From NCBI GenBank assembly GCA_030609325.1, contig JAUWCL010000001.1:104746-168745 (forward strand): a stretch of 64,000 bases of DNA. Reading direction: 5' to 3'. The position numbers and the translations under genes were made by a program. Origin of the DNA: Candidatus Krumholzibacteriota bacterium (lineage in GTDB: Bacteria; Krumholzibacteriota; Krumholzibacteriia; Krumholzibacteriales; Krumholzibacteriaceae). Below the pieces are notes generated by a model. It did not search any database and had not been told where the DNA came from. It saw only the letters and a program-made list of their open reading frames with translations. Of the stretch, positions 31,729-48,685 are shown piece by piece (within the stretch, counting starts at the first letter, position 1; every line of letters starts with the position of its first letter).

Positions 31729-33492
31729 TCAGAAGTTCTCGATGAGCGAGATGTGGATGAGCATACCATCGAGGGCGATCCTGTCCCCCATGCCGAAACT
31801 CAGCGCCACGGTGCCCAGCTTCGAGGAGGACATCATGCCGAACCCGAGCCCGTCGCGGAAGTCCCAGCCGATGTCCCTCCTGTAGCAGGCCCCCGCGTCG
31901 TAGAAGAGGAATATCCTCGACGCGCCGCCGAACCTGTACTCGAGGTTGGCCCAGGCTATCTTCTCGCCGCGGAACTGGTTCTCCCTGTAGCCCCTCAGGC
32001 TCCTCACCCCTCCCAGCGGATAGGTCTCGGCCGCCTTTACGTCGCCGGTCGAGAAGACGCCCTCCGAGACGAGCCTCATGAAGATCGACTGCCTCGTGAA
32101 AGCAGGAATCTCGACGTCTCCCTCGAAACGGTAGAGAAGCTGCCTGTCGCTGTCTGTACCGCCGGCGGCGTATTCCTTCCTCAGGGCACCCTCGACCCTG
32201 AGGACGAGTGCGGCCCGCCCCGGCGGCCAGAGCGTCCTGATGCCTGCCCTGAACCTGTGCCTGACGCTCCTGTCGAAAAGGAGATCGTTCTGCGGGACGT
32301 TGTTGTCCCAGGTGTAGCCGGCGAGCAGCTCGCTGCCGGGCCCGGCGTCGAGGCTCATGTCAAAGCCGACCAGCGTGTAGTCGTACAGGGTATCGTAGAC
32401 ATCCTGTCTCAGCTCCGCGTCAAATCCCATGGGCAGGGAGAAGAAGAAATCCTCCGAGTACCTGAACTGCAGCGTCCGATAACTCACACCGTCATTGAGC
32501 CACCTGAAATCGACGTCCCTGCCGCTGCCACCTATGTTTCTCAGCGTGATATCGACCGATCCGTTGGTGATGTAACCTTCCTTTTCCTTCTTCGCGAAGC
32601 CGAAGATCCCCTGTATCGAATTACACCGTTTGGCCTCCTCGACCGGGATCCTCACATCGACCCTGCCGGGGCCGAGCCTGCGGACCTCGACCTGCCCCAC
32701 ACCGGCGAAGAGGCCCGAGACAGAGAGGTAGCGCTGTGCGCGCGGCAGTTTCTCCTCGTCGAAACGCTCCCCCGTCACGAGCCTCGACGTCCTCAGTGCC
32801 AGCGACGTATCTGTCTTCGTTAAGCCGTCGAAGACAACCGTCTCGATAATCGACTCCTCCCCCCCGTATACGGCGAAGGTCAGGTCCACGGCGTTCGTCT
32901 CCGAGTCGTATTCGAACCCGGTCATCCAGACCTGCGCATAGGGGTATCCCGAACGGTTGAGCTCCTCGAGGAGACCGGTCATCGAACTCTCGAGCGCCAC
33001 CGGGTCGAACCATGCCCCGGCAGAGACGCCGAGCCTGCCGGCGAGCTCCTCCCCGGGGATGACCTCGGATCCGCTGATCGTCACCTTGCCCGTCTTCGCC
33101 CGGCTTCCCTCGGAGATCAACAGCGTGATCTCCACCGCCTCTCCCCTCATCGTCGTGTCGACGGCTGCACGAGCACCGAGAAGGCCGGCGGTGAAGCAGA
33201 GGGAATCTATCCGTCCAAGCTCCAGATCAACGAGTGAATCGCTCAGCTGCTCGCCCGCACGGAGGTGACTGCCGCGTTCGATAGCGCCGGCGTCGAGAAG
33301 GTCCAGCCCCTCCCATTGCACCTTCGATATCCACGGACGGCCTGTCCCGAGGGTATCGCCGACCTCCCGGGCGGGAGCGGGGCTGCCCGCCTCAGACACA
33401 CCTCCCCACGGGGCGGAGAGGACCGCCGTGACGATCAGCGCGGCCGCCAGGGCCGCGCTAGAAGTAAGCGCGGCTCTCCAGCTTGAAAGCAT
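31729..33492 (-). CDS. BamA/TamA-family outer-membrane surface antigen (POTRA + Omp85 barrel)
   Basis: 587 aa; POTRA-like repeats then barrel with YPLGGVRSLRGYRENQFRG and a C-terminal F. Confidence 0.85.
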   Translation of the reverse strand: MLSSWRAALTSSAALAAALIVTAVLSAPWGGVSEAGSPAPAREVGDTLGTGRPWISKVQWEGLDLLDAGAIERGSHLRAGEQLSDSLVDLELGRIDSLCFTAGLLGARAAVDTTMRGEAVEITLLISEGSRAKTGKVTISGSEVIPGEELAGRLGVSAGAWFDPVALESSMTGLLEELNRSGYPYAQVWMTGFEYDSETNAVDLTFAVYGGEESIIETVVFDGLTKTDTSLALRTSRLVTGERFDEEKLPRAQRYLSVSGLFAGVGQVEVRRLGPGRVDVRIPVEEAKRCNSIQGIFGFAKKEKEGYITNGSVDITLRNIGGSGRDVDFRWLNDGVSYRTLQFRYSEDFFFSLPMGFDAELRQDVYDTLYDYTLVGFDMSLDAGPGSELLAGYTWDNNVPQNDLLFDRSVRHRFRAGIRTLWPPGRAALVLRVEGALRKEYAAGGTDSDRQLLYRFEGDVEIPAFTRQSIFMRLVSEGVFSTGDVKAAETYPLGGVRSLRGYRENQFRGEKIAWANLEYRFGGASRIFLFYDAGACYRRDIGWDFRDGLGFGMMSSSKLGTVALSFGMGDRIALDGMLIHISLIENF

Positions 33493-36400
33493 GGACTGTC
33501 CTTACCTCTCCGCTGAAATCCTTTTCCCTGTGCCCGTTGTAATTTATTCCGAAACTGATGAACTTCGTGAACCTATACTGCCCCACGACGTTCCAGTCCT
33601 CCCTCAGTCCCTGCTCGAGGAAGAAGAGGGGCTTGCCATCGCTCGACTTCTCGTCGGTCCAGGTGAGTTTGAGCAGGGCGTTGAGATGGATCTTCGTCCC
33701 TATGGAAGCGTCGAACGACGGCGTGACGAATATCGAGACCTGCTCCGCCAGCGATACGGCGTCCTTCCTGTTCTCCGCTCCCCCATCGATGGCAAGCTTG
33801 ACCGACGGCCTCAGCTTCCACGCGAGTCTCGTCGAGCCCCGCAGGCTCTCGACCCTGTACATCTGGCCCGCCGCACCCGACACCATGCGCGAGCTCAGCG
33901 AGGTCTGTCCCTGGAATGTCAGCGTCAGCGATCTGGCAGGAATCAACTCGAACCTCCCCTGGATCTCCCTCGTGTATCTCTCGACCGAGACGTCCTCGCT
34001 GCGGTTGTCCTCCTCGTCCTCCCTGAAGAAGATCAGCCTGATGTTGTACCCTTTCACGTCCCCGAGGAATCCCCACTCGGTCCTGAAACTGTTCTTCCCG
34101 TAGAGCGTCCATTCGTCCCTCTGCAGGAGGGACGGATCGAGCAGATAGAGCCTCGCCAGCTCATCGGTTCGCGACCTCTCTACGACCGAGAAGAAGTTGT
34201 CGACCGATACGTTCCTACTGATCCAACGCCACATGCCGGTATCGGACGACGGTGTGAGCGACAGGCCGCGGACGCCGCTGCCGATGCTGAGCCTCCATGA
34301 GAGCTCTACCGTGCGGACGGGGACCGCGTCCTCGGCGGGAAGAAAGATGACCATGTAATCCCCTCTGTTCTGCCCGACCTCGTTTCCCTCCTCGTCGTAG
34401 TCGCCCTGGTTCTCGCCGACGTATACGACCGCCTTCTCGAGTCTCCTGTCGACTCCCGAGCTGATCCTGTAGCTCACGTCGTTCGTGACGGCGCCGGTCC
34501 ACCAGGCGTCCCTGTACCTCAGCCTTCCGAGGTCGTGCCTCCCCGAAGCTCCCGTATCCCTGTACTTCGTGTTCCTCCTGCTCGCGATCACCTCTACTAT
34601 CGCCTCGCCCGAGCTGTATCCTCCATCGAGCCTGATCTCGTCGTTCTCTCTCGCCCTGAACCATCCGCCCCCCCCGGCCTCCATCCTGTCGGTGTTCCTC
34701 ATAGTGTACGACAATGTCCCCCTGAAACTTCCCGCCTTCCTCTTCGAGAGCGAGAAGATGTTCTGGTAGTAAAACCTGCCCGTATCGGGGGCGTCCGCAT
34801 TGAACGACCTGTACCTCTCGGTGTCGAAAACGACCCGCGGCAGGAGCTCCCAGAAGCCGAACGCACCCTCGGCGTGCAGACAGCGCCTGTCGCGGCCGAG
34901 GTCGTTCTTCGAATCGTACCCGGCCGCCTCGATCCCGCGGTCGGCCTTGTCCCCGAGCGCGAGGGACGCCTCGGTCTTCCGCGCCCCCGGACCACCCGTC
35001 CTCTGCAGCCTGTTGTAGCTTCCACCGAGCTTCCAGAGCTTCTCCCCCTCCCAGGTCAGGGTGAGGCCCGAAATCTTCTCCGTCCCCTCGAGCGGCACGT
35101 CGGTCAGGTTCCAGTTCCTGTAGAAATAGGCGTCCCTCACCTTGTCGGGCGCGCGGAACCTCTCCTCGAGAGATGAATACCCGGCGAGCAGCGACAGCCT
35201 GCTCGCGCCGACCGCCTGGTTCTTCATCCCGCCGCTGAATCTCAGCGCTCCGCCCCGATTGTCCTCGTCTCCTGCGCCCGAGAGGACGTTGGCGTCAAAG
35301 AGCGACAGGTTTCCCTCGGCCGAGAGAAAGAGGCTCCCCTTCGCCGCGTCGAATCCGAGGGAGAAGACCTCCTTGCGCTCCGGCAGCAGAAGCGGCTTTC
35401 CGACGAGGTGGGTTCCCTCACCTGCTCCGTTGTACCTGTATTTGATCCCGCCGCGTCTCGTGAATCCATCAGTGACGTAGTCGCCCTTCCCCTCTCCGGC
35501 ATCGAAAAAGTCGACGAGGAAGTCGCCCCCCTCCTCGACGAACTCAAAATGCTCGGGGACCGTATCGGCAGGGACGAGGATGTAGGCGTCGAGTACGTCC
35601 TCGACCGGCATGATGCCGGGGGCCACCGCCTTCGAAGGATCGTCGCCGGCCCCGGCGAGGATGTCCCTCTCCTCGTCAGTCATCACACCGCGCACCGGGT
35701 CGTCGGGATCGTCCGATTCCCTGAAGTAGAATCCCTTAAGCGTCGCCGCGCCTCCGGCCAACGGCGACGTCCAGCCGCCTGTCAGAGTCGTCCTGCCGTA
35801 TCCGTCCTCACCGCTCTGGTAATCGACGACGATCTCCGAGTCGGATGTTATCGTCACCCGCTCCGTAAAGGTAATCGTCCCCCTGCCGTAGTCTATGACA
35901 TAGTGGTTCTCCGCGCCGCGCCGCATCCGGCGGCCGTCGAGGTAGACGACCTCGGTTCCCGGCAGGATGATGACCCCGTTGAAGCGCCTCGCGTCGAGGA
36001 GCTCGTACGGCCCCTGGACCCCCTCTGTCCCGAAGAACCTCGCCGTCTTAAACCTGCCCTTCGTGATACCGCCTCCGGCGAAGAGCTCCTGGTTCCATGC
36101 GTTCACCTTCACCGAGGCGCCCCTCAGCTCCCGCTCGAATCTCGAGAAGCTCGACCAGTCCTGCCCGCCGGCGAAATCGCCGAAGTTCGTCTCGGTATGC
36201 CTGCTCCTGACCTGCACGGCGACCTTGTCGAGATGCTTCAGCTCCTCCGTGTTCCCCTGCGGCTGAACGGGAAGGTTGTCGTCGGTAAGATATGCCCTCA
36301 CCTCGAGGTCCTTCGCCAGCTTTCCCATCATCGTCACCTTGAGGCTCTGGTCTATCCCGAGGTCCTTACCCGAGCCGACCGAGAATCCCACCGTCTTGTT

Positions 36401-36868
36401 GCCGGAGAGCCTCAGCCTGTACGGGCTGGCCGCCTTATCCTTCCCCGGCTCCGTCGAGGAGAGAGCCGGCATGGTGACCTGGTGCCGGGGCGCCTCACCG
36501 GGGAATCTCGAAGCGAATACCGGGGCGAAGGCGAAAGGGTACCTCTTCCACCGGACGTCCAGTATCTCGCCGCCGACCGGGCGCTCGACGAGTATCAGCG
36601 TACCCTTGAGTATGTTTATCCTGTAATCCGTTTCCCTCTGAAGGGGCAGGCCGTCGAGGACGACCGAGTCGCTCCCGGCGATGATGAACGACACGCCGAG
36701 ATCGATACGGGTCTCGCCCTCCGAGAGCGCGATCCTCCTCGACTCGACGTAATGGTCCCGCACTGGCGCCATCACGCGGAGGTTCTCTCCCTCACCGGCC
36801 TCGAGCAGTCCGGCGGCCAGGATCGTAAGGAGAGCGGCTGCCTGGAGTCGAAAGGAGATCATGGTCAT
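33458..36868 (-). CDS. Very large predicted outer-membrane beta-barrel protein (possibly SprA-like)
   Basis: 1136 aa with signal-like N-terminus, repeated amphipathic beta-strand patterning and terminal aromatic residue (ESRAYF). Confidence 0.6.
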   Translation of the reverse strand: MTMISFRLQAAALLTILAAGLLEAGEGENLRVMAPVRDHYVESRRIALSEGETRIDLGVSFIIAGSDSVVLDGLPLQRETDYRINILKGTLILVERPVGGEILDVRWKRYPFAFAPVFASRFPGEAPRHQVTMPALSSTEPGKDKAASPYRLRLSGNKTVGFSVGSGKDLGIDQSLKVTMMGKLAKDLEVRAYLTDDNLPVQPQGNTEELKHLDKVAVQVRSRHTETNFGDFAGGQDWSSFSRFERELRGASVKVNAWNQELFAGGGITKGRFKTARFFGTEGVQGPYELLDARRFNGVIILPGTEVVYLDGRRMRRGAENHYVIDYGRGTITFTERVTITSDSEIVVDYQSGEDGYGRTTLTGGWTSPLAGGAATLKGFYFRESDDPDDPVRGVMTDEERDILAGAGDDPSKAVAPGIMPVEDVLDAYILVPADTVPEHFEFVEEGGDFLVDFFDAGEGKGDYVTDGFTRRGGIKYRYNGAGEGTHLVGKPLLLPERKEVFSLGFDAAKGSLFLSAEGNLSLFDANVLSGAGDEDNRGGALRFSGGMKNQAVGASRLSLLAGYSSLEERFRAPDKVRDAYFYRNWNLTDVPLEGTEKISGLTLTWEGEKLWKLGGSYNRLQRTGGPGARKTEASLALGDKADRGIEAAGYDSKNDLGRDRRCLHAEGAFGFWELLPRVVFDTERYRSFNADAPDTGRFYYQNIFSLSKRKAGSFRGTLSYTMRNTDRMEAGGGGWFRARENDEIRLDGGYSSGEAIVEVIASRRNTKYRDTGASGRHDLGRLRYRDAWWTGAVTNDVSYRISSGVDRRLEKAVVYVGENQGDYDEEGNEVGQNRGDYMVIFLPAEDAVPVRTVELSWRLSIGSGVRGLSLTPSSDTGMWRWISRNVSVDNFFSVVERSRTDELARLYLLDPSLLQRDEWTLYGKNSFRTEWGFLGDVKGYNIRLIFFREDEEDNRSEDVSVERYTREIQGRFELIPARSLTLTFQGQTSLSSRMVSGAAGQMYRVESLRGSTRLAWKLRPSVKLAIDGGAENRKDAVSLAEQVSIFVTPSFDASIGTKIHLNALLKLTWTDEKSSDGKPLFFLEQGLREDWNVVGQYRFTKFISFGINYNGHREKDFSGEVRTVHAFKLESRAYF

Positions 36869-37812
36869 TTACCGGGGTAGTCGAGTCGGTACACGAGGAT
36901 CGACCTCGTCTTCAGGTCGGCGATGTACAGGCGGTAGTCCCACGAGGCCGCAACGGCGGAGGGCCTGATCTCCTCTCCCCCGCCTATCGTCAGCACGTGA
37001 GCGAGAGAGGGCGTGAAAGCGTAGACGAGACCCGTTCCCGGATCGGCGACGAATAGATAGCCGTCGAGCCCGCCGCACACATATCGCGGGGATTTCATCT
37101 CCCCTCCGCCGGAGAGGGCGGCATAACCTTCGAAGCCTCCCGCGCCGCCGAGGATCTGTACGCGCGAGTTCCCGAACTCTGCCACCGCGATCCTCTCGTC
37201 GCCGAAAAGGGCCGCCTTCACCGGCTTCTCGAAGCTTCCATCGGCCCAGCCGTACTCGCCCGTCCTTATCTCCACATCGAGGAGAGGCGACCATACCGTT
37301 ATCTCGTGATTCTCGATGTCGGTCGTCAGCAGCCTTCCGCCTGCGCTGCTAGTGAGGGAAGCGGGCCTCATCCGCTCGAAGAGCGAGAAGTCGAGGAGCA
37401 CGTCGAGCCACGCCCCCTTGTATTCGTACCTCAGCATCCTGTTTCCTGCGTAATCGAGGACGTACACGAACGTGCCGTGCGCGGCCACGTCTATCGGATA
37501 GAACCCCGCGTCAAGACCGGGCACCTCGAACTCGAGAGAGGCGCCGTCCTGCGAATACCTGTATACCTTTCCCGCCATCGCATCGGCGACGAGGACGAAT
37601 CCCCTGTCGTCAACGGCGAGCCCGAGGGGTTCCCTAAGCTCTCCGGCGCCGAGGACGATGTCGAGCCGTTCGGCCCGGAGAACATCTTCGGTGACGGTCG
37701 ATGTGGAATCCTCCTGCGCATGCAGACCCACCGGGAAGACGGCGATGCACAGCAGAATGCTTATGAGAATAGATGGGATTTTCATCTCGTCAGAACGGCC
37801 TGTTGACCGCAA
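36865..37812 (-). CDS. NHL-repeat beta-propeller lipoprotein/exported protein
   Basis: 315 aa; LREPLGLAVDDRGFVLVADAMAGKVYRYS-type repeats. Confidence 0.75.
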   Translation of the reverse strand: MRSTGRSDEMKIPSILISILLCIAVFPVGLHAQEDSTSTVTEDVLRAERLDIVLGAGELREPLGLAVDDRGFVLVADAMAGKVYRYSQDGASLEFEVPGLDAGFYPIDVAAHGTFVYVLDYAGNRMLRYEYKGAWLDVLLDFSLFERMRPASLTSSAGGRLLTTDIENHEITVWSPLLDVEIRTGEYGWADGSFEKPVKAALFGDERIAVAEFGNSRVQILGGAGGFEGYAALSGGGEMKSPRYVCGGLDGYLFVADPGTGLVYAFTPSLAHVLTIGGGEEIRPSAVAASWDYRLYIADLKTRSILVYRLDYPGK

Positions 37813-38581
37813 AGTAGAATCCGCCGGGCCTCGGTCCCACCTCGAACCTTACGGGAATGTTCGACGAGGTGTCGACGTCATTCGTCGACCTCCTGGCGAT
37901 GTATACCGCGTCGACGGAGCTGACGACCCTGAGCGCGAAGAGATAAAAGGCCGCGTAGAGGGCGTTGCGACCGGCATTCTCGCTGTCGCCCCTGAGAGTG
38001 TTGAAGTTGTGCTGGGCGTCGGTCGACGTCCACCTCCATGCCATCTCCGACGAGACGTAGTTCTCGAGGTAGTAGGCGTCCATCGCGGTCTGGTCGGGGT
38101 AGTACAGGTCGCGGGCCTCTCGCCTGACGTATTCATTGTATCCTCCGGGGCCGTCGCTGCTGATCCACCTGCCCACGTTCTCGTAATAGCCCTGATCGTG
38201 TCCCGTCCCGCCGACTCCGGCGTAGGCCGCCGCATAATCTATATACGCGCTCTCTTTTGAGCTCGACCTCCACAGCGACGTACCTAGGGTTATCCACCCG
38301 GCGGTTTCGAGGGTCCAGTAAACGTAAGCTCTTGTCTTACTCCCCATGCGGTACTGGCCGAGGCCTGGGAGCAGGAAGCTCAGGCCGCCCTCCTTCGCGG
38401 GGGAATACGTGCCCACCGCGATAGTTCCCGTCTCGTCCTGCGCGAATCCCTCCGACGCGAGATGCCAGGCGTATCCTCCCGCGGGCGCGTCCGACGGGAG
38501 CCGGGTCGAGAACGGCTTCGCCGCCATCGCTCCGTGGGAGGCTGTCACGATTACGAGCAGAAATACTGTCAGCTTTCTCAT
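37790..38581 (-). CDS. Exported membrane protein, DUF5683-like
   Basis: 263 aa; LSFLLPGLGQYRMGSKTRAYVYWTLETAGWITLGTSLWRSSSKESAYIDYAA, a DUF5683-type pattern. Confidence 0.65.
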   Translation of the reverse strand: MRKLTVFLLVIVTASHGAMAAKPFSTRLPSDAPAGGYAWHLASEGFAQDETGTIAVGTYSPAKEGGLSFLLPGLGQYRMGSKTRAYVYWTLETAGWITLGTSLWRSSSKESAYIDYAAAYAGVGGTGHDQGYYENVGRWISSDGPGGYNEYVRREARDLYYPDQTAMDAYYLENYVSSEMAWRWTSTDAQHNFNTLRGDSENAGRNALYAAFYLFALRVVSSVDAVYIARRSTNDVDTSSNIPVRFEVGPRPGGFYFAVNRPF

Positions 38582-38591
38582 GATCCTCCCC

Positions 38592-39515
38592 CTAGAAACG
38601 ATAGCTCAGCCCGATAGACGACGATTCGAAGCCCGGCCTGAAGTCGAGAGTCCATCCGCCGTCGTCGTAATCGCCCCTGTTGTAACGGTAAGCCAGCCAT
38701 CCGGCGTCGAGCATCGAGACGACATGGTTGATGATAAGGGCCATCACGTATCGGTCCGCCCTGAGGAGATAGTCGTCGCTCTCCGTGCGCATCGCCCAGT
38801 AGGCGGTCCTGTTCGGGGTCCACGGCTCGAAATCGTCGTAGTTCCCGTTCCAGTCGTCCCATCCGAATGAGAAGGCGTCGTATTTGCCCATGTTCTCGTA
38901 ATATTCCTCGCGATCGAGATGTCGCGGTATGTAAACGAAGTAGTCGGCGCTACCCTTACCTTCCTCGTTGTACTGCTCCCAGCTGTCGCAGCCTTCGGGC
39001 CCGAGTCCGGTGCAGTATGGATGCTGCAGAAGGAACCTCTCCTCGCTCCAGTGCTCGTCGCCGAACATCTCGTATTCGGTCTTCACTTCCTTGCCCTTGT
39101 CGTAGTTATCCCGGTAAGAGTACCAGAAAAATATTTCCATACCCAGGAAGACCGGGACCCTTAGGTAGTGGGAGACCTTCTTCGAGCCGGTAGCCACGTA
39201 GAGCTCTCCCATTCCGGGAAGGACGGCCGAGGCGATCACTGCGGCGGCAATGTTTCTCTTCGGCCTCGCCGATACGAACGAGCCCGCTTCCTGGAAGCCG
39301 GCTCTCTGCGCTTCGAGCTCCTCGCGCGTGACGATCGGCGTCTCGAGCTTCCTGCCGGTCAGCCTCAGCGTCTCGTTCATCCTGTAACGCTCGAGGTCGA
39401 ATGTCTTGCCGCCGGTCTCTTTTGCGGCGGCTGCGTGCGTGGTTGGAGCGGCGGAGACCTGTATAGCGAGGCCCGTGAGAAGCAGCGCAAGCAAGCAGCT
39501 GACGACAAAACGCAT
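38592..39515 (-). CDS. Exported membrane protein, DUF5683-like (paralogue of preceding gene)
   Basis: 307 aa; AAVIASAVLPGMGELYVATGSKKVSHYLRVPVFLGMEIFFWYSY; same layout as 37790-38581. Confidence 0.6.
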   Translation of the reverse strand: MRFVVSCLLALLLTGLAIQVSAAPTTHAAAAKETGGKTFDLERYRMNETLRLTGRKLETPIVTREELEAQRAGFQEAGSFVSARPKRNIAAAVIASAVLPGMGELYVATGSKKVSHYLRVPVFLGMEIFFWYSYRDNYDKGKEVKTEYEMFGDEHWSEERFLLQHPYCTGLGPEGCDSWEQYNEEGKGSADYFVYIPRHLDREEYYENMGKYDAFSFGWDDWNGNYDDFEPWTPNRTAYWAMRTESDDYLLRADRYVMALIINHVVSMLDAGWLAYRYNRGDYDDGGWTLDFRPGFESSSIGLSYRF

Positions 39516-39531
39516 CGATATCCTCCGGTTG

Positions 39532-42500
39532 TTAATTTACAATAGCGAATTTTCTGGTCGTCTCCACCGTCCTGCCGCCCGACCTGACGACGATGCGACA
39601 GAGATAGACGCCCGACGCCCGGCCGGTCATCTCTACGGCAAACTCGGCCTGCCCCCCCGAGAGGGACATGCTCCTCTCGAGGACCCTCTCCCCTTCGAGT
39701 GTCAACACGTCGAGCTTCGCCTCCCCCTCGTCAGGCGCGGTGAAATGGAAGGCCACCCTTTTGCCGGTCGAGGGATTGGGATATATCACGAGGTTCCTGT
39801 CGAGATCGGCCCACTGCGGCTGCTCGACGTCGAATCCCGAAGACGGCAGGATATACGAGTCCCTGTCTGCGCCGCCGTATACCGACGTCCACGAAGCCGA
39901 CATGTCGAAGTCCCCGAAGGGGACCCTGTGCCACCTGGCTCTGCCTCCCTCGGGCCTCCACTGCCCGAAACCGCTTTCTTCCGAGTTGAAGACGAGATCG
40001 AACCATGATATGAACCCGTCCCCTGACACGGCGGTGAGATCGACGGGCTCGATGAAGGAACCGGCCGTTTTTCTCGGCCATCCTGGTACGAGGTCGCCTT
40101 TATGGTCGAACACATACATGATGCCCGCGTCGGTACCCGCCAGGACCCACGCACCGTCGGCGCCGGCGGCGGTCACGATCGGCACGGAGATGTTCACCAC
40201 GACGGGAAGGACGTAGACGCGGTTTATGTCTCGCGGCCACCCGGTGACGTTCGCTCCCGACGGATCGATCGCGTATATCGTGCTGCCGTCTGTGTAGACG
40301 AGATCGAGGCGTCCGTCGCCGTTGAGGTCCTGGATCGCGGGCGGGAAGGGTATCGCAATGCCTTCGCGTCTCTCGCTGATCCTCCCCTCGCTTCTGTAGA
40401 GGACGATCTTACCTGTCGCCGCGGCGATTATCCATATCTCGCTTCCCGCGCTGCCGGGAACAATATCCCCGCCGGTAAGAAAAATCTCTCCCGAAAGGTC
40501 GGACGCCGAAAGGGAGACTTCGACGGCGAACGATCCGTCATGAATGAGTCCCCCGGATGTTATCCAGTAGCTCTCCAGCATGGCGCCGCCGCTTCCGTCG
40601 GACGGGACGGTGAGCGCGAACACCGCGTTCGCTTCATCGCTGGCGTCCTTCTCGACGACGAGGTTGCCGGTGAAGCGGCAACCCGCCTCAGGAGATGCCG
40701 GCGTGCCGGCAGCGAGCCCGTCGGTCCCGATCAGGTGAAGCGGGCCGGTCTTTTCGGCGGCCACCACGTAGACTCCATGCGAGGTATGAACAGGCACGGG
40801 GAATGTCGCGAGCGTCGTATCGAGCGTCACGGGCCAGGAATGACACTGGGTCCAGTCGTCCTCGCTGAACGCGTAGATCGTTCCGTCGATACCGGCTACT
40901 ATGACCACATCCTCAGCGGGGCCGCCGCAGTCGGTGAAGCCGGAGATACAGGCAGCCGGAGTGAGCGCCGGGCCGCCGATGTCGAATACCGGAGCGGAAT
41001 GTCCTGCCATCCAGCCCTTCCCGTCCTCGTCGATCATCAGGGCGTCATGCAGCCCGCCCAGGGGGATCACACCGAATTTCGAGGGCGAAATGCCGCCGGG
41101 AATCATCTTCGTAGCAACCCGCTCCCTGCAGCCCGCAGCGAAGGTCATCAGCGTGTCCCTGCCTGAGACAGACTCGAGACGAAGGCCGCTCTGGACCTGC
41201 CAGTTGCTCCAGGCCGGCGGCAGCGTCGAATCGTTCATCTCTACGGCGTTCCCCTCGTAGAACGCGTCGTCGTACCATCCCAGCCCGAATCTCGACGTGG
41301 GATCGCCGAGATCGACGACGCCGTTCGCCTCGATGAGCGAGACGCCGAAGGGCCAGCGCGAGTTGACCTCGTTCGCCTCCCACCTGCGCTCGATGAAGAA
41401 CTCGTCGACGTGCCACACGAGAATGCCCGGTCCCCAGTCCGGTCCCGGCCACGGTGATTCGGTGGGAAGCAGGTAGTCGTACCCGTTGGTGAATTCCCAG
41501 TCTATGACGTCGGGTATCCCGCTCCCGCAGTTCATACAGTTGCCCGGCCCGAGTATCACGCCGGTGACCTCGTCGGTCACAAAGCCGGTGATCAGCCCGT
41601 CGAGCTCGGCCGCCCTGTTCTCGATCAGCCAATACTCGTCGGCCGATATCTCGACCCTCACGCCCCTGGACGGGCATTTCCCCGAGGCGGAGAGGGCGAC
41701 GGCATCCTCGAAGGTGCCGATAGTGTCTACATCCAGCCAGCCGAGAAAATATTTCGACCAGGCGCAGAGGCCGCCGGGTACGAACCCTTCGGCGTAGTGC
41801 TCGCCCCCCTCTTCGTCGACGATGATCGCGCCGAGCTGCCCCCCGCTGTCCATGTTGTCGAAGACGCCTATTGCGGAAGAATTCGTGTAGATGTCGTAGA
41901 GGTCGCAAAGGCCGAGCTGGTGCCCGAACTCGTGCGCCAGTACGGCGGCGATCCCGCCGTTGTAGCCGTCCTGGATCGATGTTTCCGGAATGACGGAGAG
42001 CTCGGTGATGACGTTCCCGCCCTCCACGACGATCTCGTCGCCGTCGCCGAGTATCGCATAGAATGAAGGGACATCGTTGGGGCTGTTGCCGAGCACGTCG
42101 GACTGTAGATTTGCCCCGGCGTGCGCCACCACTATCGCGTCGAAGTCGCTCAGCCTGACGGGGTATCCGTCCGACTGAAGCGAGTCGTCGCAGACGGCGA
42201 CCGCGTCCTGCACGAACTTCACCAGCATCTCGGTCGTCCACCGTCCCGATTTTCCCGGACCGTAGTCGGCCAGGTCGGTGAGTCTGTAGCTTTCGTTCTC
42301 CCCGGCGGGAAGTATATCCCACGTTATCTCGGCGGCGCCGCACGACTGAAAATCGTAATACCGGGCCATCGCTTCCATATGTGAATCGAAATAGGCTTTG
42401 TTGTGAGGGGTCGGGTCGATCACGGATGTTCCGATCGAGTCGAAGTCGAAGTCGCCCCCCGTCCTTATGCTCGTCAGGCTGCCCGACCTGTCAGACCGGA

Positions 42501-42819
42501 AGGATATCCGCACAACGACGACGTTCCACATAGCGGCAGGGGCGGCGGGACCCTGGAGCATCCTGGACGCCGAGGCCTCCCTCGTGCGGCGCAGGCCCCT
42601 GAGCGAGGGCCTGTCGAAGCCGAATATCCTCGCTCCCGTCATGGCTCCGTCGGGTACAGGAGCCTCGCGCCCGGTGTGGTACAGCCCCCCCGCCCGTCTC
42701 TCGAGAACGGGAACGGGATGTCCGTCTGCGGCGAGCGCGCCCGTCTGCAGGACGGCGAGCAGAAAAAATATGATTACACCGGCAGGCTTGCAAATGCGAT
42801 CAGCCATCGGTCGGACCAA
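39532..42819 (-). CDS. Secreted M6-like metalloprotease with C-terminal type A sorting-like domain
   Basis: 1095 aa; zinc motif VLAHEFGHQLGLCDLYD; C-terminus NLVIYPNPSTGKRVAFHFTAPDEGEAKLDVLTLEGERV...GVYLCRIVVRSGGRTVETTRKFAIVN. Confidence 0.88.
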   Translation of the reverse strand: MVRPMADRICKPAGVIIFFLLAVLQTGALAADGHPVPVLERRAGGLYHTGREAPVPDGAMTGARIFGFDRPSLRGLRRTREASASRMLQGPAAPAAMWNVVVVRISFRSDRSGSLTSIRTGGDFDFDSIGTSVIDPTPHNKAYFDSHMEAMARYYDFQSCGAAEITWDILPAGENESYRLTDLADYGPGKSGRWTTEMLVKFVQDAVAVCDDSLQSDGYPVRLSDFDAIVVAHAGANLQSDVLGNSPNDVPSFYAILGDGDEIVVEGGNVITELSVIPETSIQDGYNGGIAAVLAHEFGHQLGLCDLYDIYTNSSAIGVFDNMDSGGQLGAIIVDEEGGEHYAEGFVPGGLCAWSKYFLGWLDVDTIGTFEDAVALSASGKCPSRGVRVEISADEYWLIENRAAELDGLITGFVTDEVTGVILGPGNCMNCGSGIPDVIDWEFTNGYDYLLPTESPWPGPDWGPGILVWHVDEFFIERRWEANEVNSRWPFGVSLIEANGVVDLGDPTSRFGLGWYDDAFYEGNAVEMNDSTLPPAWSNWQVQSGLRLESVSGRDTLMTFAAGCRERVATKMIPGGISPSKFGVIPLGGLHDALMIDEDGKGWMAGHSAPVFDIGGPALTPAACISGFTDCGGPAEDVVIVAGIDGTIYAFSEDDWTQCHSWPVTLDTTLATFPVPVHTSHGVYVVAAEKTGPLHLIGTDGLAAGTPASPEAGCRFTGNLVVEKDASDEANAVFALTVPSDGSGGAMLESYWITSGGLIHDGSFAVEVSLSASDLSGEIFLTGGDIVPGSAGSEIWIIAAATGKIVLYRSEGRISERREGIAIPFPPAIQDLNGDGRLDLVYTDGSTIYAIDPSGANVTGWPRDINRVYVLPVVVNISVPIVTAAGADGAWVLAGTDAGIMYVFDHKGDLVPGWPRKTAGSFIEPVDLTAVSGDGFISWFDLVFNSEESGFGQWRPEGGRARWHRVPFGDFDMSASWTSVYGGADRDSYILPSSGFDVEQPQWADLDRNLVIYPNPSTGKRVAFHFTAPDEGEAKLDVLTLEGERVLERSMSLSGGQAEFAVEMTGRASGVYLCRIVVRSGGRTVETTRKFAIVN

Positions 42820-42837: not shown

Positions 42838-43833
42838 TCAGAAGGTGACGCCGATGGACCAGCGGTGGACCCTCGCGAGGTCCTTCGACTGCGGGATGCT
42901 GGCCCAATCTATTCTTACCGTGTTATTGATTACGAATCCGAGACCATAGGTCGCCGACTCGATATTTCCATCCTTGTCGTAGACGTACCCGAGACGCAGG
43001 GCGATCAGGTCAGAGTACAGGAATTCGGTCCCGGCGTGATACGTGTTGGAGCGCTCGAACTCGACCATCGGCCTGTTGATCTCTCCTATGATGTACAACC
43101 TGGCCAGGTCACTCCATACCGGAGCCCACGCAAAGCTTCCCTTGAGGTTCCTCGGCAGGGGGGCCGCCTGGTCTACGTTCATGAATGTGATCGACGGCCC
43201 GAGGTTCGAGACGGCGAGGCCGAGGCTCATCCTCCTGATCATAAAGCTGCTTATGCCGAAATCGGGGATCTTCCACAACGCGCCGAAATCGACGGCGACA
43301 GAGCTTCCCGTTCCCGAAGTGCCCTCGAGCGTGGCCCATGCCGGCGCGAGGCTTATGTATACGAACTTCAGGTTCATTCCGAGTGAGATCTGGTCGCCCA
43401 GCTTCACCGCGCCGCCGATCATCGGGGAGACCTCCCACGCCGACGCGGTTCCCAGCTCCTCGGGCGTCGTGCCGGTCACCGTATACTCGCCGTAGGTCAG
43501 GTACTGTATTGCGAATCCGACCGTTCCTATGCCCTTTATCTTGTAGATACCGCCTATATAATCGAAGAAGACGTCTGAGGCGAGATCAGGGACGAGCTGC
43601 GAGTGCATCAGGTCTATGGCAATATTGTCGACGAACGCCATCCCGGCGGGGTTCCACCACATCGCGGTCGCGTCATCTGCGATCGCCCCGAAACTCTGGC
43701 CCATCCCGTTGGCTCTCGCTCCGGGAGGGATTATGAGGCTGCCCGCTCCCGCTTCTCCCTGTGCGAACGCCGTGGAAGAGGCAGCAGCAATAATGAACAA
43801 TGAGATTGTGATCAGCCTTCCCGTTCTTGCCAT
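42838..43833 (-). CDS. PorV/PorQ-family outer-membrane protein
   Basis: 331 aa; LIIPPGARANGMGQSFGAIADDATAMWWNPAGMAF, UPF0164/PorV-type signature. Confidence 0.85.
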   Translation of the reverse strand: MARTGRLITISLFIIAAASSTAFAQGEAGAGSLIIPPGARANGMGQSFGAIADDATAMWWNPAGMAFVDNIAIDLMHSQLVPDLASDVFFDYIGGIYKIKGIGTVGFAIQYLTYGEYTVTGTTPEELGTASAWEVSPMIGGAVKLGDQISLGMNLKFVYISLAPAWATLEGTSGTGSSVAVDFGALWKIPDFGISSFMIRRMSLGLAVSNLGPSITFMNVDQAAPLPRNLKGSFAWAPVWSDLARLYIIGEINRPMVEFERSNTYHAGTEFLYSDLIALRLGYVYDKDGNIESATYGLGFVINNTVRIDWASIPQSKDLARVHRWSIGVTF

Positions 43834-43960: not shown

Positions 43961-46900
43961 TTATCTGAGATGTACCGCCTTCCCACTGACCGTCTCGCTG
44001 CGGTTGAAGGAATCCCTGAAGGATACCTCGAGGACATAGATGTACGTGCCGTTCGCGATCCGGTCACCGATATAATCCCTTCCCTCCCAGTAAATACTGT
44101 TGAATCCCTCTTCCGCCGCCAGCTCGGCGTTCCATATCTCGACGCCGGAGAGGTTGTACACGTGCAGAAGGACGTCGGCCCTGCTGCTCAGCTGAAACAC
44201 GAAATTCGTCGATTCCGTGAACGGGTTGGGCATATTGAATACGTCGCTCACCATATAGAGGCCCTCTTCGACGACCTCGAAGACGAGGGTGTCGGTCGCC
44301 GATTCGCCGAGGTTGTCGAATGCCCTGACTATCACGGAGTGCTCGCCGGGCGCGAAACCGGAGTGAAGGGGGTACTCGACGCACCCGGTCGTCGAGGAAC
44401 CGTGCTCATATTCGAAGTATTCCGTCACGAATATCGGATAGCCGCTGCGATCGAACTCGAAGAAGATCGAGCTCTGCGGCTCGGTGCCGAGGATGGCGAT
44501 CCCGTCGTCGTCCGATATCTCTGCCACGAGGATAGCCCCCCTCTTCACCTTCGTCGCCTGGCCGGAAAAGTAGAGGTCTATATCGGGCGGGGCCTCGTTC
44601 GGCGGAACGGTCCCTGACGGGACGATCGCCAGTGTGTCGGTGGCGCCGACACCGTCGGCCCCCGCCTCGCTGACGTACGAGCGGACCCTCGCCCTCGACC
44701 CGTTCCTGCACCTGACCGGTATCACGAAGTCGAGATCGAACCTGCCGGCGGTAACGTCGACCGAGCCCCTGAATATGTCCTTGCCGGGGAGCCTGTATTC
44801 GAGTTTCTTCTCGATGCCCCAGTGGATGATATCCTCGCTGATCATCTCCATCGATTCCTGGACCACGATCTCCGCCGTGCCGTTGAAGGTCGAGAGGAGT
44901 TCTCCTCCCTCCGTCACGCGGCCGATCAGCGTATACCTGTTCCCTGTTTTCATCGTGTCTATGACGGCGATATCGTGCTCGACCATATGCCCCGGAAGGG
45001 CGAGCGTGAGTGCGGGATCGCCGAGCAGGGTGTACTTGGCGTTGTTGCTCGTGTACATATATGTCTTGTCGTCGATCTTGGCCATCATCAGTGCGGTACC
45101 GATCGGCTCCGTCGCCGTGCTGTCCCCGCCTGTGAAAAGATAGTCGAAATAGATATAGTTCAGCTCCCTGTTCGGGAACAGTCTCGTCGGAGCGACCCCC
45201 GCGATCACTGCTATGGCCCCACCGTTGTCGAGGACGGAGATCTCCTGCCCCATGCTCCTGTGATAGGGAAATTCCAGGTCGCCCACGGAGCAGGAGAATG
45301 CGAGGAAAAGGGGCTGCTTCGTTCCGTTCATCAGGGAATACAGGTCGGACATCTGCATCACTCTCTCGTCGGCGAGCTGCTTAGGGGATCCGTGCCCCGC
45401 GTAGTTGACCACGAGGGCGCCGCACGACCATTCCTCGAGCAGGTCGCTGGTCGCGCCGGGCTTGAGGTCCCCGACGAATGGATAGTGATGCAGGTATATC
45501 TTGCTGTAGTCGATGAATCTCGGAATCGGGCCGTCATCGGCCGTCATCCATTCGGCGTCCCACGTAAAGTAGAAATCGTTGTCGGTGTTCGTCGAGTACT
45601 CGTCGTCAGCGACGATGATCACCCTGTTTCTCCAGGTCCCCATGTCGATGCCTGATTCGTGCCTGATCACGCGATCTATCCAGATGTCGGCGTCCCTGCG
45701 CGTGAGCACAGGCATCCTGCCGATAGCAACATCGACTAACCTGTCATAGCCCGTATCGAGCTTGGCGAGGAAATCGTCGTCTTCAACTCCCTCGTCCTCG
45801 TAGTTTACGTTGATGTAGACCGGAACGAAATCGTTCGACCGGCCGAGTATGTCCCTCGCGTCGTAGGTGCAATTTCCGATGAGCAGCGCGTAATCGATCA
45901 CCGGCGCGCCGCCGTCGCTGAAATTGTCGTAGAGAAACTTCAGGTAGTTCCTGACGGCCAGCGGATCCTTCATCCCTCCGGAGAAGTTGTTGTAGACGTC
46001 CTCGATATCGACCGCTCTCACGACAGGATCGCTCGAATAGGGCAGGTTGTTCCTGCGGTGGGACGCGAGGCGGTTCGCCGCGTCCCGGAAATTGCGGTGA
46101 TAGATTATGATCATATCGGGAGGGGTCTCGTCCCTCAGCGAGGGGAGCACTCCCGGCGACATGCTCTCGATCGCGATCGACGGGGTGAGCAGGCCCGACG
46201 CGGCGGAAGCGTGGTAGTGCAGCGGGACCGTATCGAGCATGTCCTCGAAGACTACCTCGCCCTCGTTGTTCTGCCATCCGGTCAGCCGTACCGGTCCGGT
46301 ATGGGCGGTTACGTCGAACAGGAACAGCTCCTCCGTCGACTGGAACCCACTCATCGTGACAGCGGCGGTGCGCATATCGGACGGCGCGAAGAAATCGAGT
46401 CTCCCGTCGATCGGCCTCAGATACCTGTCGTAGAATATCTCGTACCAGAGGACGTACATCACGTCGTCGGAGATCTTGGTGAACCTGAAGTTGTTCGCCC
46501 CTTCCACGATCGAGCTCACGGCCGCCTCGATAGTGTCCGGCCTGAAATCGGAATTGACTATCCAGTTCATGTGACCCGCGTACTCGGCGTTCACGTAGCA
46601 GTCGGCGTCGTTGAGATTGTTGTTGTATATGTAGGGGCCGTAGCCGAGAGTCCTGACCATCCCGGCGCCGCCGGCGACGTCGACGCACCGGAACTCGTCG
46701 TTGAAGACCGTCGTGCCCACATTCAGGCGCCTCCAGTACCAGAAGTCGTCGGTGTGTATCGGATCGTAGAGCACGTCCCGCTCGACATGTATGCGGTGAC
46801 GGCAGGTCGTGACGTAGAGGTCCGGCGAGCCGGACGGAGAGACATCCCTGCTCTGCACCCTTGCCGGCTCTCCCTCGAACGAACCGCCCCAGCTCATCCA

Positions 46901-47926
46901 GTATACGCTGTTGCCGGAATATTTATGCTTGTAGAAGCGGATATCGTCGGCCGAAGGATCGAGATGGTCGGTCCATCCGCGTATCCCGAGACCGTAGAAT
47001 ATGAAATACTCGCCGGGCATCATCGAGCCCGTATTGTCTCCCGAATATTTGAGATCGACCTCGGAGAGGTGGTACTCCTCCTCGAAGCTCCCGCCGTGTC
47101 TCGTGCTGTCGGGCTGCTGATGCGGGCCGGCGGTGAATATGCGGACGGTCGCCGGATCGATGTCCTGTGGATTGACGCCGGCCCTGGTCAGGTCCTCGTA
47201 CGAGATCCTGTACAGTCCCGTGCCCTCCATCGTCAGCTTCAGCCACTTGTCGGAGATGGCGAACTCGAAAGGGGTCCTCTGGCCCGGGGCCTCGAGCGCC
47301 GGCCTTTCCTCGACGGCGGTCCACCTGCCCGCTCCGATGACGTAACGGTCCTCGGGCCTCGGTGCCCGGCGCTTGCCGGAGGCCGGCCGCACGGGAGCCC
47401 AGGACAGCCTGACGACTATCCTCTCGGCGTGGAACAGGCGCCCGTTCTCCGGATCGGTGAGAACTGGATATATGTCGACAAGCGCCAGCCTTCTCTTCCT
47501 CAGTATCTCCACCGACGCAAGCATGGCGAAATCCCTGGACGCTGCAGGGGCGGTCTCCTTCGCCGCTTTCCCGGCGCCGGCGGCGGGATCGCCGCCGCCG
47601 GACCAGACTTCAGGCACAGCGCCTTCTACCGGCACGGTTCGACTGTCCAGAACCTGAAGCCTGATTCCGCGGTCAGCCGGCACTTCAATGAGAAATCTCT
47701 TGACGGGCAGCACGGGCAGGCCCGGTATCCTCTCCAGCGTGAATCCGGGTATCCGGATGATCGCGTCCCCGCCATCCTCCCCTCCCGTAAACGAAACGGC
47801 GGGACGGCCGGTGGTGAACTCGACGGTGACTCCGGCATCGTCCTCTGAGACGATACGCCAGTGTCCCGCCCCGGCGGCGGCCGGAACGAGCATGGCGATC
47901 AGAAGCAATATCGGGATCCTCTTCAT
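43961..47926 (-). CDS. Gingipain-type C25 peptidase, PorU-like, with C-terminal FlgD-Ig/sorting-like domain
   Basis: Probable start MKRIPILLLIAMLVPAAAGAG at 47926 (ORF to 47992); catalytic region NYAGHGSPKQL...LFLAFSCSVGDLEFP; C-terminal FNMPNPFTESTNFVFQLSSRADVLLHVYNLSG. Confidence 0.88.
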   Translation of the reverse strand: MKRIPILLLIAMLVPAAAGAGHWRIVSEDDAGVTVEFTTGRPAVSFTGGEDGGDAIIRIPGFTLERIPGLPVLPVKRFLIEVPADRGIRLQVLDSRTVPVEGAVPEVWSGGGDPAAGAGKAAKETAPAASRDFAMLASVEILRKRRLALVDIYPVLTDPENGRLFHAERIVVRLSWAPVRPASGKRRAPRPEDRYVIGAGRWTAVEERPALEAPGQRTPFEFAISDKWLKLTMEGTGLYRISYEDLTRAGVNPQDIDPATVRIFTAGPHQQPDSTRHGGSFEEEYHLSEVDLKYSGDNTGSMMPGEYFIFYGLGIRGWTDHLDPSADDIRFYKHKYSGNSVYWMSWGGSFEGEPARVQSRDVSPSGSPDLYVTTCRHRIHVERDVLYDPIHTDDFWYWRRLNVGTTVFNDEFRCVDVAGGAGMVRTLGYGPYIYNNNLNDADCYVNAEYAGHMNWIVNSDFRPDTIEAAVSSIVEGANNFRFTKISDDVMYVLWYEIFYDRYLRPIDGRLDFFAPSDMRTAAVTMSGFQSTEELFLFDVTAHTGPVRLTGWQNNEGEVVFEDMLDTVPLHYHASAASGLLTPSIAIESMSPGVLPSLRDETPPDMIIIYHRNFRDAANRLASHRRNNLPYSSDPVVRAVDIEDVYNNFSGGMKDPLAVRNYLKFLYDNFSDGGAPVIDYALLIGNCTYDARDILGRSNDFVPVYINVNYEDEGVEDDDFLAKLDTGYDRLVDVAIGRMPVLTRRDADIWIDRVIRHESGIDMGTWRNRVIIVADDEYSTNTDNDFYFTWDAEWMTADDGPIPRFIDYSKIYLHHYPFVGDLKPGATSDLLEEWSCGALVVNYAGHGSPKQLADERVMQMSDLYSLMNGTKQPLFLAFSCSVGDLEFPYHRSMGQEISVLDNGGAIAVIAGVAPTRLFPNRELNYIYFDYLFTGGDSTATEPIGTALMMAKIDDKTYMYTSNNAKYTLLGDPALTLALPGHMVEHDIAVIDTMKTGNRYTLIGRVTEGGELLSTFNGTAEIVVQESMEMISEDIIHWGIEKKLEYRLPGKDIFRGSVDVTAGRFDLDFVIPVRCRNGSRARVRSYVSEAGADGVGATDTLAIVPSGTVPPNEAPPDIDLYFSGQATKVKRGAILVAEISDDDGIAILGTEPQSSIFFEFDRSGYPIFVTEYFEYEHGSSTTGCVEYPLHSGFAPGEHSVIVRAFDNLGESATDTLVFEVVEEGLYMVSDVFNMPNPFTESTNFVFQLSSRADVLLHVYNLSGVEIWNAELAAEEGFNSIYWEGRDYIGDRIANGTYIYVLEVSFRDSFNRSETVSGKAVHLR

Positions 47927-48363
47927 CCGTTCCTCCTGATCATCCACACGATGACGACCGCCGTGAAGGCGACCTGAAGGACGATGCTCCACGTGCCGGT
48001 CTCTCTTCCGTGCCTGATCAGTCCCTTCCTGTGCCCGGGAAATATCTTCTGGTCGTCACGGATCTTTCCCGTCTTCCAGAGCAGGTTTTCGAGATCCGGC
48101 AGGACGGCGAAGAGCCCGCACAGCACTATGGCCGTACTGTACGCCCCGCCGGCGAACAGGATGATCATCGTGACGATCCACAGGACGATCTCCAGACGGT
48201 AGTCCTCAAAATCCCTGTGAGGTATCATATCGAGCAGCAGGTGACTGCCCAGACCAACGAACGGAGCCGCGATCGGATTAGGAATAAGCGAACCGGCAAG
48301 CGCTCCGGCGGCAAAATGAGTGAACACGCTCACGGACTGTGCCTCCGCGGGGGAATCAGTCAT
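47923..48363 (-). CDS. Small membrane protein, DUF457/YdjM-like putative metal-dependent hydrolase
   Basis: 146 aa; FTHFAAGALAGSLIPNPIAAPFVGLGSHLLLDMIPHRD. Confidence 0.65.
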   Translation of the reverse strand: MTDSPAEAQSVSVFTHFAAGALAGSLIPNPIAAPFVGLGSHLLLDMIPHRDFEDYRLEIVLWIVTMIILFAGGAYSTAIVLCGLFAVLPDLENLLWKTGKIRDDQKIFPGHRKGLIRHGRETGTWSIVLQVAFTAVVIVWMIRRNG

Positions 48364-48526
48364 CGAGAGGTTGTGCGCGCTCGACGAGCATTATGGGAAT
48401 ATCCTCTTCCACGGGATATTTCACTGCGCAGCTCTCGCAGATCAGCCACCCACCGTCCTCGCTGAGGCAGACCCTCTCCTTGCAGCGGGGACAGGCAAGA
48501 ATATCGAGCAGATCCTGTCTGACCAT
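48356..48526 (-). CDS. Trm112-like zinc-binding protein
   Basis: Manually translated (below ORF-track cutoff): MVRQDLLDILACPRCKERVCLSEDGGWLICESCAVKYPVEEDIPIMLVERAQPLDD; LACPxC, CxxC and YPVEEDIPIML motif. Confidence 0.9.
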   Translation of the reverse strand: MVRQDLLDILACPRCKERVCLSEDGGWLICESCAVKYPVEEDIPIMLVERAQPLDD

Positions 48527-48539
48527 CGTACTCTTCCCC

Positions 48540-48626
48540 TCAAAGAAAAATCCCTGATAAAGACGGGAAACTCCAACTTCCCATCAGGGACCTGCAGCAC
48601 AGAAGCAATTTTCTTGCGGGTATCAT
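48540..48626 (-). CDS. Candidate 28-aa leader ORF
   Basis: MIPARKLLLCCRSLMGSWSFPSLSGIFL preceded by GAGGAGCGGGGAGCG; ends right after the intrinsic terminator T-tract. Confidence 0.3.
   Translation of the reverse strand: MIPARKLLLCCRSLMGSWSFPSLSGIFL
48542..48590 (-). terminator. Intrinsic terminator in the leader of the Trm112-like gene
   Basis: Minus strand TCCCTGAT...ATCAGGGA (48551-48590, with internal GGGAA/TTCCC pairing) followed by TTTTTCTTTG. Confidence 0.75.
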
Positions 48627-48655: not shown

Positions 48656-48685
48656 ATTATAAGAAAAAACAGGCCTTCAGGTCAA
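48656..48685 (-). promoter_or_regulatory. Sigma-70-type promoter TTGACC-N18-TATAAT
   Basis: -35 at 48680-48685, -10 at 48656-48661, minus strand. Confidence 0.75.

Follow-up and report, generated by a model that had tools for sequence, protein, structure and literature searches.

The 64,000-nucleotide stretch that we analysed (the window) covers contig positions 104746–168745 of a Candidatus Krumholzibacteriota genome of 2.63 Mb in 56 contigs. It contains an operon of eight genes on the (−) strand, which runs from 47992 to 31729 in the order porU–porV–M6–DUF5683a–DUF5683b–propeller–giant–Omp85. All of its genes lie on this strand, transcription proceeds from high to low coordinates, and neighbouring genes are separated by short gaps or overlap. 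The distal half of the operon consists of the five genes from DUF5683a to Omp85, which a sequence-only reading had singled out. These five ORFs are present on the (−) strand where that reading placed them, and their family hints are as it described. The five-gene unit that it proposed is too small: the conserved unit has eight genes, or ten when two small leader genes are counted.

The two small genes precede and overlap porU. One encodes a Trm112p-like zinc-ribbon protein of 56 aa (48356..48526, (−); PF03966, 1.2e-9), and its position upstream of porU is kept across the class. The other is an ORF for a small membrane protein of 146 aa (47923..48363, (−)), which is kept in several families; a Pfam search with its last 134 residues gave no match. 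Ahead of both, a consensus scan placed a promoter, TTGACC-18-TATAAT, at 48656..48685 (−), with 11 of 12 positions matching. Its boxes, CTTGAC and TATA(A/C)T, are invariant in 8/8 aligned sequences from two families. Because the two conserved small genes and the promoter all lie ahead of porU, the operon probably comprises ten genes. Between the promoter and the first small gene, the sequence TCCCTG...CAGGGA followed by TTTTT can form a terminator- or attenuator-like hairpin (48546..48590, (−)). The core of its outer stem is retained in all 8 sequences, double-sided changes were seen in 4 of 14 pairs, and an Rfam search returned no match. Judged from its sequence, the hairpin may act as an attenuator or represent a short non-coding RNA. 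The gene spacing, together with the one conserved promoter, agrees with the earlier proposal of a single transcript. Co-transcription by itself, of course, is not proof of joint function.

The promoter-proximal genes connect the operon to the type IX secretion system (T9SS). PorU, the T9SS sortase (a C25 peptidase; 43961..47992, (−), with a probable start near 47929), scored 544.8 bits against the equivalog cut-off of 420 (NF033707). The catalytic GHG (His) and SC (Cys) motifs are present in 21/21 sequences, and the operon copy is the only PorU in the genome above the cut-off. Next to it lies a PorV-family outer-membrane carrier (42838..43833, (−); PF19572, 2.7e-16). It passed the PorV/PorQ family model NF033709 (190.8 bits against a cut-off of 90) and fell below the strict T9SS_OM_PorV equivalog (123.6 against 250). 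The linkage of PorU and PorV to the five genes, which the sequence-only reading had pointed out, is thus real, with the correction that on a (−) strand operon they lie upstream rather than downstream. The third gene encodes an M6-type metalloprotease with a T9SS C-terminal sorting domain (39532..42819, (−); PF05547 above cut-off, CTD by TIGR04183). It shares the M6 fold and the T9SS sorting tail with NF052323, a family of T9SS-dependent inactivated M6 proteins, against which it scored 182 bits (cut-off 600). In contrast to that inactivated family, its zinc motif HEFGHxxG (HExxHxxG) is intact, and the motif is retained in nearly all aligned relatives.

Two DUF5683-like proteins follow on the (−) strand. 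The first, of 307 aa, carries a signal peptide and is conserved (38592..39515; PF18935, 2.5e-5); the second has 263 aa (37790..38581; PF18935, 0.023). With 24.8 and 15.1 bits, both stay under the Pfam gathering score of 26.7; profile–profile comparison showed that the two are homologous to each other (P 3e-25). The next gene encodes an NHL β-propeller of 315 aa with a signal peptide (36865..37812, (−); PF01436, 3.6e-15), and its position in the operon is conserved among relatives. An apparent loss of the propeller gene in family f4 was rejected, as the slot is filled by an equally long protein with propeller-like sequence; this protein is too divergent from the propeller for BLAST and gave no match in Pfam. 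The giant protein of 1136 aa is encoded at 33458..36868 (−), and the operon ends with an Omp85-family protein of 587 aa (31729..33492, (−)). The earlier description had listed three overlaps or near contacts among these genes. Those between giant and Omp85 (~35 nt) and between NHL and giant (ATGA) are real and are present in many relatives, mainly of family f1. The one at 37790/37812 would need a TTG start; the likelier start for the propeller gene, ATG at 37785, leaves a gap of 4 nt instead.

The Omp85 protein combines two POTRA matches (PF07244, 1e-18; 68.3 bits against a cut-off of 21.3) with a predicted barrel, for which the PF01103 match was weak (23.2 bits in the protein scan and 26.1 in the genome scan, cut-off 24). 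The POTRA domains and the RGY-type barrel motif are common to the Omp85 family (BamA/TamA), and the motif (L/V)RG(Y/F/W) was found in every relative in which that region is aligned. The operon protein differs from BamA in scoring below the BamA equivalog TIGR03303 (99.1 against 297 bits), and the genome has eight further Omp85 matches, which makes nine in all. Its gene comes after the giant gene in every relative whose contig extends that far, and the protein is apparently dedicated to the operon. Searches for a T9SS sorting signal with Pfam and NCBIfam models found none in Omp85, the giant, the NHL protein or the DUF5683 pair.

Conservation of the gene neighbourhood, a check named in advance, was assessed in 28 relatives, the order being judged wherever the contig was long enough. 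Co-conservation was strong: the same genes, in the same order and on the same strand, occur in families f1 to f7, which puts the arrangement in seven or more families of the class, and in distant families the operon proteins have diverged down to 25–35% identity. The order of porU and porV with the five genes is unbroken in every sufficiently long contig. Three genomes, two of f7 and one of f1, have a block without the M6 gene.

Across the phylum, the giant is a core gene kept in single copy, present in 77/80 genomes and in 45/46 of those of good quality. A scan of genome contigs found close relatives only, the nearest named ones being Candidatus Krumholzibacteriota MAGs, and a scan of viral contigs found none. 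One close relative (L040, ~5445–5522) has a single TAG stop right after giant residue 365, either a true lesion or perhaps a mistake of the assembly. No Pfam family corresponds to the giant, and SprA_N (PF14349), present in the true SprA of this genome, was not found in it with Pfam. In a few members Pfam matched DUF2460, DUF3078 or OMP_b-brl, none of which was accepted as the family of the giant. A PDB sequence search with the single giant sequence gave no match; with the giant profile, the search reached SprA at E 0.16.

The sequence-only reading had likened the repeated DYGRGTITFTERVTITSDSEIVVDYQ-type segments of the giant to SprA. Indeed, the only match of the giant above noise in NCBIfam was a local one to TIGR04189 (SprA), at residues 298–351 (4.4e-5). 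With 20.8 bits it lies below the curated SprA cut-off of 200, and the same model touches 27/30 members of the giant family. Profile–profile comparison aligned this segment (repeat 2, residues 295–353; 35810..35986, (−)) with residues 714–771 of Krumholzibacteriota SprA at P 4.9e-9, and both lines of evidence identify the DYGRGTITFTERVTITSDSEIVVDYQ segment as a genuine SprA-type repeat. The segment is also repeated as claimed: there are two copies, the other lying close to the N terminus (repeat 1, residues 47–110; 36539..36730, (−)). Repeat 1 matched the same SprA repeat at P 3.6e-7 in the whole-protein comparison and at P 7e-14 as a segment, exceeding all 60 column shuffles. An AlphaFold model of repeat 2 (81 aa) reached pLDDT 65; a Foldseek search of the PDB with it produced no match with E under 0.001, and the 50 best matches listed did not include SprA.

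In many members, the repeat (residues ~298–354, 35807–35977) also matches the phage tail-tube family NF052337, the distal-tail family TIGR02217 and DUF2460. These matches hint at a β module common to SprA and phage tail proteins, and this resemblance means that the repeat may be a mobile β module.

The likeness to SprA extends beyond the repeats. Between the two copies, a hairpin module (residues 145–284; 36017..36436, (−)) is homologous to SprA residues ~208–362. The match was weak in the whole-protein comparison (P 0.002), reached P 3.5e-5 as a segment, and improved to 9.6e-6 when 57 giants and 31 SprAs were aligned. With 60 column shuffles per segment, the maximum for the hairpins was 18.5 against a real score of 36.5. 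When the module was slid along SprA, scores of 36–39 occurred solely at the homologous site, with at most 18 elsewhere, and among all windows tested the match was specific to SprA 91–366. Omp85, PorV, PorU and M6 controls gave at most 20. Against the corresponding stretch of Flavobacterium SprA the hairpin profile was weak, 12 of 20,000 shuffles scoring equally high, so the hairpin claim rests on the Krumholzibacteriota SprA profile. The C-terminal end matched the SprA C terminus weakly (segment P 0.0001–0.003; shuffle maximum 22.5 against a real 35.2) and less cleanly, as it also reached 25.8 against Omp85. In the larger alignments (57 giants, 31 SprAs) the barrel half likewise stayed weak, with P 0.003 for the C terminus and P 0.09 for the middle. 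All segment P values are somewhat optimistic because the segment boundaries were picked after the whole-protein comparison. The hairpin module, repeat 2 and the C terminus stand in the same order in giant and SprA. The proposed resemblance to SprA is therefore borne out by two β repeats and an N-terminal hairpin module in SprA order, and we conclude from these profile matches that, over its N-terminal third, the giant is related to SprA, if divergent from it.

The C-terminal part of the giant (residues ~501–1136; 33458..35368, (−)) is a predicted barrel in an amphipathic-strand model, and it ends in an invariant phenylalanine, F1136. Searches of Pfam, NCBIfam and PDB profiles gave no family match for this half. 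Strands were counted by an alternating-strand model with approximate emission values, which was also applied to control proteins of the same genomes. The giant was assigned 16–36 strands over the reasonable range of penalties, and 24 where the model agreed best with the controls. That setting called 12 strands for PorV (14 expected from known structures), ~13 for the Omp85 barrel (16 expected) and 48 for SprA (36 known). Given these under- and over-calls, the giant probably has 20–30 strands, a crude estimate. The ~600 aa of strand–turn pattern noticed in the earlier reading is plausible under this model, and the 36-strand barrel that it had asked about is not supported. AlphaFold prediction of the whole giant from a shallow alignment of six sequences reached pLDDT 27 and pTM 0.21 and yielded no usable model. 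We consider that the giant very probably forms a barrel whose end resembles that of SprA.

The comparison with SprA/Sov (TIGR04189; PDB 6h3i, 8gl6; PMC10994853) also brings out the differences. The hairpin module, the β repeat and the barrel-like C-terminal end are common to both, whereas SprA/Sov proteins have ~2,100–2,400 aa and the giant is half as long; no counterpart of SprA residues ~363–700 and most of the middle was found in it. We thus read the giant, on these sequence comparisons, as a SprA-superfamily protein that is divergent and of half length, and not as SprA in the curated sense. It coexists with a separate true SprA and is gene-linked to PorU and PorV. This true SprA, of 2163 aa, is encoded on another contig (C26) and scored 482 bits summed; SprA was found in 58/58 class genomes examined. 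In addition, the genome has 36 sorting-domain matches. GldL, GldM and GldN were not detected with their models; the same three models matched in no control genome, so that their sensitivity is unproven. In a T9SS with SprA, PorU and 36 sorting domains, the motor may be either too divergent or replaced by a different source of power.

PorZ contains β-propellers. In the T9SS attachment complex (PorU, PorV, PorQ and PorZ), two components, the catalytic PorU and a PorV-family carrier, have counterparts in the operon, and the giant, Omp85 and the DUF5683 pair are extra. The NHL protein has 315 aa and no detected sorting domain, and its identity with PorZ is unsupported.

We propose that the operon is an outer-membrane finishing module of the Krumholzibacteriota T9SS, with the giant as a second outer-membrane stage; we give this reading a probability of about 0.5. 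The giant would form a large outer-membrane barrel, on the order of 20–30 strands, which the adjacent Omp85 would help to insert. Together with PorV and PorU it would act on T9SS cargo in one of two ways: it would either let some of the cargo through as a channel or serve as a platform that brings the PorV–cargo complex to PorU. The giant may have periplasmic or surface partners in the propeller and the two DUF5683-like proteins, and SprA, encoded elsewhere, would stay the main translocon. Weighing against this reading are the weak match of the barrel half to SprA, the low confidence of the AlphaFold prediction, the likeness of the repeat to phage tail proteins and the negative searches for GldL, GldM and GldN. 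The literature presents SprA as the T9SS translocon, a barrel of 36 strands, and one paper calls it FCB-specific (PMC10994853, PMC12611786). In Flavobacterium, PorV docks at the lateral opening of SprA and takes the cargo away (PMC10994853); a SprA-like barrel encoded in a porU–porV operon would be a natural second docking site. The earlier suggestion of a free-standing new export machine is not supported, as the operon is part of a T9SS whose true SprA is encoded elsewhere in the genome. The five genes therefore appear to extend the T9SS in a phylum-specific way and not to form a machine of their own. A stronger version is a two-barrel T9SS, in which a half-size SprA-derived translocon with its own Omp85 and propeller would work beside SprA, possibly without a GldLM motor; this we hold only tentatively and consider rather doubtful.

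In the main rival explanation, Omp85, the giant, the propeller and the DUF5683 proteins would together assemble giant barrels in the outer membrane. Such a TAM- or BAM-accessory-like device, dedicated to this task, would insert SprA and other very large barrels, and the giant would be its scaffold or its client, not a channel. The constant position of the Omp85 gene behind the giant gene fits this explanation, as does the presence of eight other Omp85 matches, since the operon Omp85 may then be specialised. Flavobacterium offers a precedent: its BAM complex is greatly expanded and suspected to be connected with the T9SS, and the Bacteroidota bamA locus encodes two essential T9SS components (PMC12611786). 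However, no T9SS proteins are among the Flavobacterium BAM subunits (PMC12611786), and the giant is akin to SprA and not to known assembly factors. We consider this explanation possible, with odds clearly against it.

A further explanation is that the five genes constitute a separate envelope system that exports lipid, polysaccharide or lipoprotein and shares no more than a transcript with porU and porV. The absence of M6 from three genomes, which indicates that membership of the block is not rigid, would fit, and so would the five proteins' lack of a detected T9SS sorting signal. The never-broken order with porU and porV in sufficiently long contigs and the SprA modules of the giant argue against it, making this explanation unlikely. 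Finally, the giant might have no transport role and be nothing more than a large barrel of the surface or a scaffold, with borrowed SprA-type repeats, as the sharing of the repeat with phage tail proteins and the barrel half without a family match might suggest. This is highly improbable, given that the match to SprA at the homologous site includes the hairpin module and not the repeats alone, and that the giant is kept near-universally in single copy.

The T9SS, SprA, PorU and PorV are already known. In the literature searched, we found no account of a T9SS in Krumholzibacteriota, nor any report of a SprA relative of half length that is coupled to an Omp85 protein. The distribution of the giant, which we surveyed within the phylum, may be wider, or the protein may already be catalogued elsewhere. 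A half-length SprA relative tied to PorU, PorV and Omp85 offers a smaller comparison for asking which parts of SprA make the channel, and its near-universal presence in the phylum makes the handling of T9SS cargo beyond the Bacteroidota a question open to testing.
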